A DNA stretch of 40,527 bases from Bacteroidales bacterium (GTDB taxonomy: Bacteria; Bacteroidota; Bacteroidia; Bacteroidales; UBA932): positions 1 through 40,527 of the forward strand of contig JAFZKT010000078.1 of NCBI GenBank assembly GCA_017553545.1. Direction: 5' to 3'. Each line of letters opens with the position of its first letter. The stretch's first letter is position 1. The notes under the pieces are model-generated. The model was not told the DNA's origin and did not search any database. It was given only the letters and a program-made list of their open reading frames with translations. A program made the position numbers and the translations under genes. This document shows positions 24,782 through 29,052 of the stretch, piece after piece.

Positions 24782-24913
24782 GGCATATTCCCGCCCTGTG
24801 GAACGTTGTAAGGCCGAAGGCCGTGGGAGGGGGTTTGGGGGATTCCTCCCCCAATGAATAAGGCCCCGTAGGGCACCAAAAAAGGACGCAACCGCGTCCT
24901 TTTTTGTGTGCCC
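24782..24913. repeat. Direct repeat copy 2, entering the tRNA-Leu 3' end
   Basis: Same unit as 23627-23754, here ending in TTGTGTGCCC, of which GCCC (24910-24913) is the last part of the tRNA acceptor stem. The two copies enclose ~1.03 kb containing only the BRO-N gene. Confidence 0.9.
24878..24905. terminator. Terminator hairpin in repeat copy 2
   Basis: AAAAAAGGACGC (24878-24889), loop AACC, GCGTCCTTTTTT (24894-24905), a 12-bp perfect stem. On the minus strand it lies just past the tRNA 3' end and should terminate that transcript; on the plus strand it would stop the BRO-N transcript. Confidence 0.85.
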
Positions 24914-24992
24914 AGAGCGGGAATCGAACCCGCACGGTATTGCTACCACAGGATTTTGAGTCCAGCGCGTCTACCAATTCCGCCATCCGGGC
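24909..24992 (-). tRNA. tRNA-Leu (anticodon CAA)
   Basis: The minus strand folds as a class II tRNA of 84 bases. The acceptor stem is GCCCGGA with TCTGGGC (one G-U pair); the D-arm has GGAATTGGTAGACGC. The anticodon loop is CTCAAAA with CAA at 24956-24958. A long variable arm (GGTAGCAATACC) is typical of leucine tRNAs, and the T-arm reads GCGGGTTCGAATCCCGC. The anticodon stem contains one U-U mismatch. CCA is not encoded. The 3' end touches the repeat and terminator on its right in transcription order. Confidence 0.93.
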
Positions 24993-25062
24993 AGGATGGG
25001 GCCGTAAAGGCCGGAGATGGACCGCAAAGATAAGCCAAATTCGCCAAACCGCCAAAAATACT

Positions 25063-25070
25063 TATCTTTG
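25063..25070 (+). promoter_or_regulatory. -7 box of the aro operon, 7 bases from the ATG
   Basis: TATCTTTG ends 7 bases before the ATG of aroB at 25078, leaving a leader of about three or four bases at most. Confidence 0.6.
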
Positions 25071-25077
25071 CATTAAT

Positions 25078-26064
25078 ATGGTAAAGGAACTGAACAGTGT
25101 GGCCGATGTCTTGGTTTTCCTGAAAGGAGAGCCGGAGGTGTTCGTGGTCTGCGACAAGAATGTGGAGTGGGTTTTCCAGGCCCTTAACCCGGATCTGCCG
25201 CACCTGTTCCTGGAGGCGACGGAGGGGAATAAGACCCTGGAGACCGCGGAGAGTATCGGCCGATGGCTCCTTCAGCAAAAGGCCTCCCGTGGTGCCCTAC
25301 TCCTTGCCATCGGCGGCGGCATCACCACGGATATTGCCGGATTCGCCGCCGGCATTTACAAGCGGGGTATCCGCTACGTGAACCTTCCCACCACCGTCCT
25401 GGCACAGGTGGACGCTGCCATCGGCGGAAAGACCGGCGTAAACCTGGACGGCTACAAGAATATCCTGGGCCTCTTCCACCAGCCGGAATATACCTTCATC
25501 TGCCCGGAGGTACTGAAAACCCTGCCGGAGCGGGAATACAAAGCCGGTCTTGCGGAGCTGCTCAAGACCCTGCTTCTTGAAAACGGTAACGCTTACGAGG
25601 CTGCGCTGTCAGACATCCAAGCCCAGAAATCCCTGGGCCGATGGATTGTTTTGGCCGCCTCCGTCAAGGAGGCCATCGTAGCCGAAGACCCGTATGAACA
25701 CGGCGTCCGGGCCAAGCTGAATCTGGGGCACACCTTTGCCCACGCCATCGAACACGAAGCCCATAAGCGGGGAGAAGATATCCATCACGGGGAGGCCGTT
25801 GCCATGGGCATCATCCTGGCCGCACGGCTGAGTGAAGCACGGGGGATTGCAGAATCTGGACTCGCGAAGAAGTTGGCGGCGGATTTTGCATCCATCGGCC
25901 TGCCGACCACATCCCCCTATGCCCTGGAGGAGCTGAAAGAGGCCATGGCAAAGGACAAGAAAGCCCTCGGCGGCGGGAAGGTGAAGTTCGTGATCCCCGT
26001 AAAGCCCGGTGAAGTGGTATTTGCAGAATTGAACCCCAATGATTTGCACTTCCCTACAGAATAA
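25078..26064 (+). CDS. aroB: 3-dehydroquinate synthase AroB
   Basis: AroB makes 3-dehydroquinate from DAHP, the second step of the shikimate pathway, using NAD and a metal ion. The 328-residue sequence has the NAD loop AIGGGITTDIAGFAA, the NLPTTVLAQVDAAIGGKTGV block, the metal ligands Glu in GLAELLKTLL, His in LGHTFAHAIEH and His in HHGEAVAMG, and KDKKALGGGKVKFVIP near the end. It is slightly shorter than the common ~350. A longer upstream reading would cross the tRNA gene and the promoter and is rejected. It heads the operon aroB - aroD/aroA - aroC; the next gene starts 26 bases before its stop, so translation is coupled. Confidence 0.95.
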   Translation: MVKELNSVADVLVFLKGEPEVFVVCDKNVEWVFQALNPDLPHLFLEATEGNKTLETAESIGRWLLQQKASRGALLLAIGGGITTDIAGFAAGIYKRGIRYVNLPTTVLAQVDAAIGGKTGVNLDGYKNILGLFHQPEYTFICPEVLKTLPEREYKAGLAELLKTLLLENGNAYEAALSDIQAQKSLGRWIVLAASVKEAIVAEDPYEHGVRAKLNLGHTFAHAIEHEAHKRGEDIHHGEAVAMGIILAARLSEARGIAESGLAKKLAADFASIGLPTTSPYALEELKEAMAKDKKALGGGKVKFVIPVKPGEVVFAELNPNDLHFPTE

Positions 26065-28012
26065 GGACCTGGCGCAGATTCAAGCCCTGCTGGAAGGGCT
26101 GGAGATGGCCGAAATCCGCCTGGACCGCTGCGCCCTGGAGGATGAGGAAATCGACGCCCTCTTCTCCGACACGGACGTGCCGCTCATCGCCACCTGCCGC
26201 CTGGAAGAAGAGTCCCAGGCTCCGGAGCTGCTGGAGCGGGCCATCCGGGCCGGTGCCAAGTACGTGGACCTGGAGATGGAGGCGCCCGCCGCCATCGGCC
26301 GACGCATCCGTCAGGCCTGCCAGGAATGGGGCACGGTGCTCATCCGCTCGTATCACAATTTCGAAAATACACCCTCACGGGAAGTGCTGCTGTCCCTTTT
26401 TGACCGCGCCCGCTCCTTCGGCGGGGAAGTGGTAAAAATCGTCACCACGGCACATTCCAAGGCCGATAATGACGTGGTGCTCTCCCTCTACGATGCCGCA
26501 GAGCCCGGCACCCTCGTCGCCTTCTGTATGGGCGAAGAAGGTCGGCCTTCCCGGCTGGAAGCCCTGCGCCGCGGCGCACCTTTTACCTATGCGTGCCTCT
26601 CCCCGGAGGACGCCACGGCCGCCGGCCAGTGGACTGTTTCCGAAATGCAAAAGGCCGTATACGGGGACTACCGCTTCATCCGCAGCGGAGAACTCCCCAT
26701 GCCTTCCTCCAAGAGTTTTGCCCAGCGCGCCATCGTGGCCGCCGCCCTGGCTGATGGCGTCTCCGTGCTGGAAGGTTATTCCCCCTGCGGGGACAATGAA
26801 TCGGCCCTTGCCGTGGCCCGGGCGTTGGGCGCGGAAGTGTCGCTGGAGGGCAGTCGCCTGACCATCAAGGGCATTGCCGCCGCGCCCGCTTGCCTGCAAC
26901 TGGAGGAACTCCACTGCGGTGAATCGGGTCTTCTTACGCGGCTGATGATTCCGCTTCTGTCCACCCTCTCGGACGGCCGCGGAGTGCGGGTCACCGGCGA
27001 AAAAACCCTGCTGGACAGGCCCCTGTCACAGGCACACGATATTATGGCGTCCTTCGGCGTGCGGCTGTATCCGGACGATTCGAATGCCCGGAAAGTTGAC
27101 TGCTATCTTCCGCTGAAAGTATCGGCCCCCCTCATTCCCGGCAGGGCCGATGTCTCCGGAAAAGGCGGCTCCCAGCTCATCTCCGGTCTGCTGGCTACGC
27201 TGCCGCTTGCGGATGGTAAGTCCACCGTCTATGTGCACGAGCCCCGCAGCATCCCTTACCTCTTCATTACGGTGGATGTGCTGAAGAAGTTCGGCGTCCG
27301 CATCGGCTCGGAGATGGAAGGTGACGACGATTTCCTGGAGAATCAGGATTGGAGCCGATGCACGGCCGTCAACTTCCACATAAAAGGCGGTCAGCGCTAT
27401 CAGGCGGCCCATTTCGCCATTGAGGCGGACTGGTCGGCCGCCGCGCCTTTCCTCGTCGCCGGTGCCCTCTTCGGAGAGGTGGAGGTGACAGGACTGGATA
27501 CCACCAGCCTTCAGGCCGATATCTCCATCCTGGACATCCTGATGCAGGCCGGTGCCAGCATGTCGCAGCTGGAAGAGCCCACGGGCAGCATCCGCGTTCG
27601 GCGAGCGCCGCTCAGTGCTTTTGACGCAGACCTGAACAACTGCCCGGACCTGTTCCCGGTGGTGGCGGTCCTGGCGGCCTTCTGCCCCGGCGAAAGCCAC
27701 ATCCTGGGCGTCCAGCGCCTCCGTCACAAGGAAACGGACCGTGCCGCGGCCATCGAGGAAATGCTCACGCAGATGGGCGTCCCGGTGCGCACGGACGACG
27801 ATGAAATGACCATTACGGGAATGGGCCTCACCCAGCGGCTCGCTACGGGTAAACTCTTGAAAGGCGGCTCCTACGCCTCCTACGCGGACCATCGGATGGT
27901 GATGGCACTTCGCCTGGCGTCCCTGGGGGCATCGGCCCCGATAGAAATCGACGACACTGCCTGTGTGGCGAAGTCCTTCCCTGCTTTTAATGAAATGTTT
28001 TCCGCCCTATGA
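26039..28012 (+). CDS. aroDA: Fusion of type I 3-dehydroquinate dehydratase (AroD) and EPSP synthase (AroA)
   Basis: The 657-residue protein joins two shikimate enzymes. Residues 1-~207 are a short type I dehydroquinase with the ExR motif (AEIRLDR), His106 in SYHNFENTP and the Schiff-base Lys133 in VVKIVTTAHSKADN. Residues ~212-657 are EPSP synthase with PSSKSFAQR (Lys/Ser for PEP and shikimate-3-phosphate binding, 222-230), HCGESGLLTR at 292-301 in place of NAGTAMR as in other Bacteroidetes forms, and RLRHKETDR near 570. It therefore performs steps 3 and 6; shikimate dehydrogenase and kinase are not in the window. The fusion has no obvious linker. It overlaps aroB by 26 bases and aroC by 4. 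The catalytic residues that I could check are intact, so both halves are likely active. Confidence 0.93.
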   Translation: MICTSLQNKDLAQIQALLEGLEMAEIRLDRCALEDEEIDALFSDTDVPLIATCRLEEESQAPELLERAIRAGAKYVDLEMEAPAAIGRRIRQACQEWGTVLIRSYHNFENTPSREVLLSLFDRARSFGGEVVKIVTTAHSKADNDVVLSLYDAAEPGTLVAFCMGEEGRPSRLEALRRGAPFTYACLSPEDATAAGQWTVSEMQKAVYGDYRFIRSGELPMPSSKSFAQRAIVAAALADGVSVLEGYSPCGDNESALAVARALGAEVSLEGSRLTIKGIAAAPACLQLEELHCGESGLLTRLMIPLLSTLSDGRGVRVTGEKTLLDRPLSQAHDIMASFGVRLYPDDSNARKVDCYLPLKVSAPLIPGRADVSGKGGSQLISGLLATLPLADGKSTVYVHEPRSIPYLFITVDVLKKFGVRIGSEMEGDDDFLENQDWSRCTAVNFHIKGGQRYQAAHFAIEADWSAAAPFLVAGALFGEVEVTGLDTTSLQADISILDILMQAGASMSQLEEPTGSIRVRRAPLSAFDADLNNCPDLFPVVAVLAAFCPGESHILGVQRLRHKETDRAAAIEEMLTQMGVPVRTDDDEMTITGMGLTQRLATGKLLKGGSYASYADHRMVMALRLASLGASAPIEIDDTACVAKSFPAFNEMFSAL

Positions 28013-29052
28013 ATACTTTTGGCAACAGATTCCGTGTAAGCATTTTCGGTGAATCCCATGGCCCGCGCATCGGCGTGACCCTGGACGGCGTCCTTCCCGG
28101 CATTCCCCTCGGCGAGGAGGATTTCGCGGAGGATTTGGGCCGACGGAAAGCCGGCGCTCTGGGCACCACACCCCGCGTGGAGGACGATTTCCCGCAGATT
28201 GTCTCCGGCGTCTTCGACGGGCACACCACCGGCGCGCCGCTCACCATCCTTTTCCGCAATGAGAATACCAGGAGCGAGGATTATGAGCAGTTCAGAAAGC
28301 ATCCCCGGCCCGGTCATGCAGACTTTACCGCCAATCTCAAGTTCGGCGGATTCAACGATATCCGCGGCGGCGGCCATTTCAGCGGCCGGCTCACGCTGGG
28401 CATCGTGGCGGCGGGCGTCGTCGCCAAGAAAATGATGCATTTCGCGAAGTTCAACGCGGCTCTCACGGAAGTGGGGGGTATTCGTGAGTCCGACAAATGG
28501 CCGGACGCCCTGAAAGCCGCCGCAGCCGAGGGTGACTCCCTGGGCGGCGTGGTGGAATGCTCTGTGGAAGGTCTTCCCATCGGCCTTGGCGAACCCTTCT
28601 GGGACAGTGTGGAATCCTATATCTCCCATGCCATTTTCGCCATTCCGGGCGTACGGGGTATCGAATTCGGCGACGGTTTCGCCGCCTCCCGCATGAAGGG
28701 TTCGGAGCACATCGACCTCTTCCCGGAGCACGAGTGCTGCCACGGGGAAAGCGAGAAGTGCCACCACGACGAACCAGATCATGAATGCTGCCACGGGAAA
28801 CACGAAGAGGGTGGTGAGCACCACTGCTGCGGCCGCCATAAACACATCCAGCCGCCCGTTACGAACCACGCCGGCGGCGTGAACGGCGGCATCACCAACG
28901 GCAATCCCGTGGTATTCCGCGTGGCCTTCAAGCCCACCGCCAGTATCGCTAAAGCCGGCGTCCCCGGCCGCCACGACGTCTGCTTCGCCCTCCGCACCCC
29001 CGTCATCGTGGAGGCCATGGCCGCCATCGCCCTGGTGGATCTGGCGCTTTAG
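28009..29052 (+). CDS. aroC: Chorismate synthase AroC with His/Cys-rich insert
   Basis: AroC makes chorismate from EPSP using reduced FMN. Family motifs are clear: GNRFRVSIFGESHG at the start, GRRKAGALGTTPRVEDD, RPGHADFTANLKFGGFNDIR, RGGGHFSGRLT, TNHAGGVNGGITNG and GRHDVC. Between GSEHIDLF (231-238) and TNHAGG (285-290), where the family has ~15-20 residues ending in RTxTNHAGG, there is a ~45-residue block with 11 His and 7 Cys among residues 241-279, including HECCHG twice and HHCCG. It looks like a metal-binding insert. The C-terminus stops early (IALVDLAL), so the total is 347 although the family norm is ~355 without such an insert. It is the last gene of the operon and overlaps the convergent pnuC by 4 bases. 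Confidence 0.93.
   Translation: MNTFGNRFRVSIFGESHGPRIGVTLDGVLPGIPLGEEDFAEDLGRRKAGALGTTPRVEDDFPQIVSGVFDGHTTGAPLTILFRNENTRSEDYEQFRKHPRPGHADFTANLKFGGFNDIRGGGHFSGRLTLGIVAAGVVAKKMMHFAKFNAALTEVGGIRESDKWPDALKAAAAEGDSLGGVVECSVEGLPIGLGEPFWDSVESYISHAIFAIPGVRGIEFGDGFAASRMKGSEHIDLFPEHECCHGESEKCHHDEPDHECCHGKHEEGGEHHCCGRHKHIQPPVTNHAGGVNGGITNGNPVVFRVAFKPTASIAKAGVPGRHDVCFALRTPVIVEAMAAIALVDLAL

Follow-up and report, generated by a model that had tools for sequence, protein, structure and literature searches.

The His/Cys-rich tails of SlyD and similar proteins are usually treated as parts of those proteins. The C-terminal tail of SlyD is described as lacking structure, with many His, Cys, Asp and Glu residues. 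The E. coli protein can bind as many as seven Ni(II) ions and the Helicobacter pylori protein binds Ni(II) or Zn(II), the isomerase activity is inhibited by nickel, and a role of SlyD in nickel storage has been proposed (PMC7055735, PMC7840056). In one case the tail is reported to be required for the maturation of hydrogenase (PMC7055735, PMC7840056), and in H. pylori it is reported to be dispensable for the effect of SlyD on nickel (PMC7840056). HspA, the GroES of H. pylori, is likewise a housekeeping protein that bears a metal-binding appendage in a single lineage, and its His/Cys-rich extension serves to sequester nickel (PMC7840056). HspA carries its extension at the C-terminus of a chaperonin and is a single host, whereas the segment described here lies in an internal loop of an enzyme and has several alternative hosts within one genus.

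The stretch of DNA analyzed (the window, 40,527 nucleotides) is one contig (G000:C84) of a MAG that is 80.5% complete. Relatives of this genome are mostly gut Bacteroidales MAGs from ruminants and horses, three of them Candidatus Cryptobacteroides, and its genus appears to be Cryptobacteroides-like. On the forward strand, aroB (3-dehydroquinate synthase, 24904..26064) and a 657-aa ORF encoding a fused type I 3-dehydroquinase and EPSP synthase (aroD-aroA, 26039..28012) lead into aroC (28009..29052), the start of which is overlapped by the fused gene. The surroundings also include pnuC and suf genes, and Pfam identifies no metal importer among the ten ORFs near aroC. The aroC ORF starts with ATG and is open over 347 aa. 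The protein matches PF01264 along its length (323.4 bits, cut-off 27) and TIGR00033 (276.1 bits, above the cut-off of 212.2), and scores below the cut-off of the stricter NF003793 (300.8 against 321 bits). In an alignment of 55 AroC sequences, the family residues H17, R45, R46, R321, H322, and D323 are invariant and H103 is conserved in at least 90%; two of the histidines are presumably catalytic. By its match to curated models, the protein is a chorismate synthase, and its FMN-dependent activity is predicted.

Residues 241-279 of this AroC (28729..28845, forward strand; HECCHGESEKCHHDEPDHECCHGKHEEGGEHHCCGRHKH) contain 11 His and 7 Cys. A sequence-only reading of the window had described this composition for 28723-28851 (residues 239-281), together with a clean reading frame, two HECCHG units, KCHHD and HHCCG, and all of these are present. 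The other 308 residues contain only 10 His and 2 Cys (binomial p ~1e-15 for enrichment), and among other 39-residue stretches with at least 4 His and at least 4 Cys in the six frames of the window, none has more than 10 His plus Cys. The insert is preceded by GSEHIDLF (28699..28722, forward strand) and followed by TNHAGG (28861..28878, forward strand), motifs that the same reading had called conserved and in which G231, S232, G289, and G290 are invariant across the 55 aligned sequences. Elsewhere the loop is short: the aligned flanks are separated by 11 residues in one solved chorismate synthase (PDB 7rca) and by 6 in another (5z9a), and in 34 SlyD-positive relatives that were examined the loop has at most 24 residues with at most two His/Cys. 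These short-loop proteins share the family and the flanking motifs with the window AroC.

The insert resembles the C-terminal tail of SlyD from E. coli, H. pylori, and the genus itself in being rich in His, Cys, Asp/Glu, and Gly and variable in length. In SlyD tails of the genus, hydrophobic residues are nearly absent, and composition and short peptides match those of the AroC inserts. AroC inserts are nevertheless richer in His (H 0.28, C 0.17, D+E 0.24) than SlyD tails (H 0.16, C 0.18, D+E 0.22), are internal rather than C-terminal, and occur in genomes without a SlyD match. The FKBP peptidyl-prolyl isomerase domain with its IF insertion is absent from the window AroC, which is matched by chorismate synthase models alone. 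Metallothionein models gave no match to the protein (Pfam at E 0.001, NCBIfam at E 0.01), a result to be read knowing that such models can miss short low-complexity stretches.

AroC was detected in 373 of 400 genomes sampled from the genus. The loop was classed at first in 111 distinct AroC genes; the later set of 116 AroC rows includes 20 fetched loci (10 new sequences) and excludes five long branches that were removed from the second tree (L112, recorded as Rikenellaceae, L114, recorded as Taibaiella, L118, L110, and L131). A His/Cys-rich loop is found in 52 of the 116 rows, and such a loop was read in 52 genomes of the genus, the window genome among them. These loops are 32 to 96 residues long, except for L062 (genome G393), with 22 residues, 4 His, and 2 Cys. 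Two further insert genomes have irregular sequences, an N run in G461 and a stop codon within the insert in G258, where the in-frame TAG (L048/L064) may be an assembly error or mark a broken copy. The remaining AroC loops are short, or are long but nearly free of His and Cys in four cases (L012, L021, L025, and L206; for example GAERSEASGGAEQSEASERP in L012). The inserts of this last type look like another captured repeat, and SlyD is present in the three of their genomes that the SlyD search covered (G072, G017, and G267). The insert is conserved in kind, and its length and exact Cys/His spacing vary. Conservation among Bacteroidales relatives, the check proposed for a functional segment, thus holds for composition and for purifying selection (below) and fails for spacing and length.

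The link to SlyD emerged from a DNA pattern for CCHGEHEEG (at most two mismatches) scanned in 120 genomes. The pattern matched the aroC insert in three genomes; its one match elsewhere, in genome G060, was to the C-terminal tail encoded by a gene for an FKBP-type isomerase. This isomerase, here termed SlyD, matches PRK10737, which we take to be the E. coli SlyD model, over its full length; its score, 115.9 bits, falls short of the equivalog cut-off (174). Used as a single-sequence query, it detected SlyD in none of 49 insert genomes and in 71 of 80 genomes chosen as lacking the insert, a set selected by lower AroC scores and mostly at least 90% complete. A profile of 18 sequences (A1, E 0.001) detected SlyD in none of the 52 insert genomes. 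Gaps in the MAGs are unlikely to account for 52 misses, and the absence probably reflects true loss. SlyD-positive genomes number 79 in total (the 71, G060, and seven found by profile), and none of the 54 AroC loops examined among them (37 of 40 fetched, and 17 others) is His/Cys-rich. The SlyD tails were examined in 31 of 72 cases, those scoring best against the tailed query, and all 31 are His/Cys-rich. SlyD is also unmatched in 17 genomes in which no AroC insert was seen, so the rule runs one way: where there is an insert, no SlyD is found. This connection changes the explanation of the insert, and it was beyond sight from the window sequence alone.

On an AroC tree computed without the loop, the insert trait changes three times, and two of these changes are forced by well-supported branches. 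The simplest history would be two gains and one loss, although one gain followed by more losses could also have given this pattern. A group with VYAP-type inserts is nested in a short-loop clade and retains a long second loop (AKAQETYDF...), whereas the second loop is shortened in the 45 other His/Cys-rich rows, which supports separate gains. SlyD was found in none of six VYAP-type genomes (G064, G003, G227, G473, G437, and G444) but in six of seven nearby short-loop sisters (G352, G373, G414, G295, G310, and G069); the seventh, G385, gave no match and is 73% complete. In the main clade, the absence of SlyD may be older than the insert. Within that clade, with weak support (77), are two AroC sequences (L014 and L081, from G057 and G331) in which the loop is almost deleted. 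The second AroC loop (KPTxSI...GRHD, residues 308-323, window 28930-28977) is shortened to AKAG type in the main insert clade as well as in the short-loop neighbors of that clade, and to RKGG in another group, of which two genomes tested (G294 and G319) have no SlyD match; this loop may be useful as a clade marker.

If the tail itself is important, SlyD-less genomes without an AroC insert are expected to carry it on another protein. The AroC loop was read in 13 of the 17 such genomes and is His/Cys-rich in none of them; of the other four genomes, G317 and G005 have the loop interrupted by the end of a contig, the remaining two being G213 and G229. A His/Cys tail was found on other proteins in seven of the 17. 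In G057 and G331, the two genomes with a nearly deleted AroC loop, it lies at the C-terminal end of a C-S lyase of the PatB family (TIGR04350, 405 bits against 340), and homologues or paralogues of this lyase at 25 other loci (31-78% identical) have no such tail. In G296 (two copies), G218, and G219, it forms the C-terminus of an uncharacterized protein of ~170 aa, which matches no family and, below E 0.4, no PDB entry, and which lacks the tail in nine other genomes. The two copies in G296 (L275 and L281, on contigs C156 and C185) are 98% identical with slightly different tails, and may represent a strain mixture or a duplication. The carrier in G034 is an ORF with sub-threshold matches only (COG6_N, 15.0 against 27.4; DUF4298, 14.4 against 27). 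Finally, the tail in G317 is on a YecH-family metal-binding protein (PF10678, 66.2 bits against 27; TIGR03853, 67.1 against 65.7), a family unrelated to AroC, which shows that such a tail can exist apart from AroC.

No tail was found in the other ten genomes (G226, G294, G319, G070, G113, G213, G229, G284, G385, and G005), which were covered by partial pattern scans. These scans gave 11 matches and one control match in 30 genomes, 11 matches and 18 control matches in 12 genomes, and 23 matches and nine control matches in six genomes. Because short patterns match by chance, only matches in His/Cys-rich reading frames were kept, and most of those from the 12-genome and 6-genome scans were discarded. 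A protein search with tail peptides failed to recover either the AroC insert of the window genome or the SlyD tail of G016. Negative results from this search are thus uninformative, and its match in G331 alone was used.

The tails of these other carriers are similar in composition to the AroC inserts. The longest peptide shared between an AroC insert and a SlyD tail is 12 residues, and that shared with another carrier is 20 residues (CCGGHHHEEGEEHHCCHGEG, in L035/G475 and G296), compared with at most eight residues for any cross pair of shuffled tails (two residue shuffles, which do not keep repeat structure). Over the shared 20-mer the DNA is 0.88 identical, and we looked for and saw no sign of recent DNA copying between carrier genes, which suggests that the tail may have re-formed instead of moved.

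Together, the features of the insert point, with somewhat better than even confidence, to a probably disordered, SlyD-tail-like metal-binding segment of His, Cys and acidic residues in the AroC loop, most likely acting as a low-specificity buffer of divalent metals. It would hold or buffer nickel, zinc, copper, or cobalt in the cytoplasm, with AroC as mainly a soluble scaffold, and would correspond to the tail otherwise found on SlyD, an interchangeable metal-buffering tail that is here housed in an AroC loop. The metal-binding or storage role suggested earlier thus stays the best reading, favored by conserved composition and purifying selection, and we still infer it, as we do the replacement of the SlyD tail by the AroC insert.

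It is also possible that the insert binds metal but that its link to SlyD is a coincidence of descent, SlyD having been lost for other reasons and His/Cys tails arising readily in the genus at any loop or C-terminus that can accommodate them. SlyD is missing too from genomes in which no tail was found, and tandem growth is common in these tails. The relatedness of the genomes limits the statistics of the association, as there are only two independent contrasts between insert and SlyD on well-supported branches and three on all branches, and a sign test is not significant. We nevertheless consider a coincidence unlikely, given the VYAP-type group without SlyD beside sisters that have it, the tails on other proteins in seven SlyD-less genomes, and the lack of any insert in the 54 SlyD-positive genomes with an AroC loop read.

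Chorismate synthase requires reduced FMN, and the insert is flanked by the highly conserved GSEH and TNHAGG segments, which we assume line the FMN/substrate site. This raises the possibility that the insert senses metal or redox conditions and thereby regulates the enzyme, as the sequence-only reading had proposed in tying chorismate formation to metal or redox state. That proposal has lost ground and now seems rather improbable: loop length ranges from 22 to 96 residues among relatives, similar tails occur on SlyD and four other proteins without a known link to chorismate, and in G057 and G331, whose AroC lacks the insert, the tail is on a PatB-type lyase. The change of carrier protein among genomes argues against a function specific to chorismate formation.

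The insert could instead have grown as a neutral or selfish low-complexity repeat without function in a tolerant loop. Tandem arrays with a period of at least 6 are present in the insert DNA of 25 of the 52 distinct AroC genes, and all listed periods are multiples of three, which supports in-frame duplication across the group and less so for the window copy. There, the repeat search returned a single imperfect 32-nt direct repeat (copy 1, PEHECCHGESE, 28723..28754; copy 2, PDHECCHGKHE, 28774..28805; both forward strand), 78% identical and 51 nt apart, and TRF found no tandem array; growth by short tandem duplication, as first suggested, therefore fits the group better than the copy from which it was deduced. 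A near-identical repeat, TGTCATTCTGAGCG[AC]AGCGAAGAATCT, is located outside aroC in several loci (e.g., L003 at 2589, L054 at 4960, L141 at 1835, and L209 at 1456) and in frame inside ten AroC inserts (L002, L037, L039, L040, L041, L043, L046, L055, L060, and L140), where it translates as CHSERSEES or near variants and thus adds Cys and His; it is not present in the window. Both this capture and the long loops nearly free of His and Cys would fit functionless growth.

The pattern of substitution speaks against it, as amino acids are conserved in the face of high synonymous change. Across the 60 closest of 83 eligible pairs, which are non-independent and in which the alignment of repeats biases pN low, the insert has pN 0.096, pS 0.574, and pN/pS 0.17, and the AroC core has pN 0.039, pS 0.358, and pN/pS 0.11. 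Gap-free VYAP-type pairs are free of the alignment bias, and one of them (L016/L204) has an insert pN of 0.000 and pS of 0.364. The low ratios, including that of the gap-free pair, indicate purifying selection on the insert peptide despite its fast change in length. Within the insert, conservation is not clearly higher at His/Cys positions (1152 of 1345 kept) than at the others (1366 of 1622). In the window copy, the coding frame specifies 18 His/Cys; the other two forward frames would give 0 and 1, and the three reverse frames 0, 7, and 4. We thus regard functionless growth as very improbable. Equally improbable is a zinc-stabilized element through which AroC would assemble or dock, such as one that links tetramers or binds a partner. 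The Cys-Cys-His clusters could form zinc sites, and HHCCGRHK is frequent at the insert end within the main clade, but the spacing and number of ligands are not fixed, the loop of L062/G393 is reduced to 4 His and 2 Cys, and similar tails are found on unrelated proteins.

For the genus as a whole, the metal-buffering reading extends to a broader proposal, in which we place about as much belief as doubt: a His/Cys metal-buffer tail is kept while its carrier is free to change, so that, once SlyD was gone, AroC (twice), a PatB-type lyase, YecH, or two uncharacterized proteins acquired the tail by rebuilding or by transfer, and one lineage may have lost it from AroC again. Among the matches listed in the open-access literature, we found neither a chorismate synthase insert of this kind nor a replacement of the tail after SlyD loss. 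A central metabolic enzyme is also seen to carry a large, putative metal-binding segment. If the proposal is true, the tail and not the SlyD foldase would be the selected metal function, and its carrier would be evolutionarily interchangeable. This natural series of species appears to split the tail from the foldase, making the idea of the tail alone as a reservoir testable, and it suggests a functional takeover by a disordered segment instead of by a gene.
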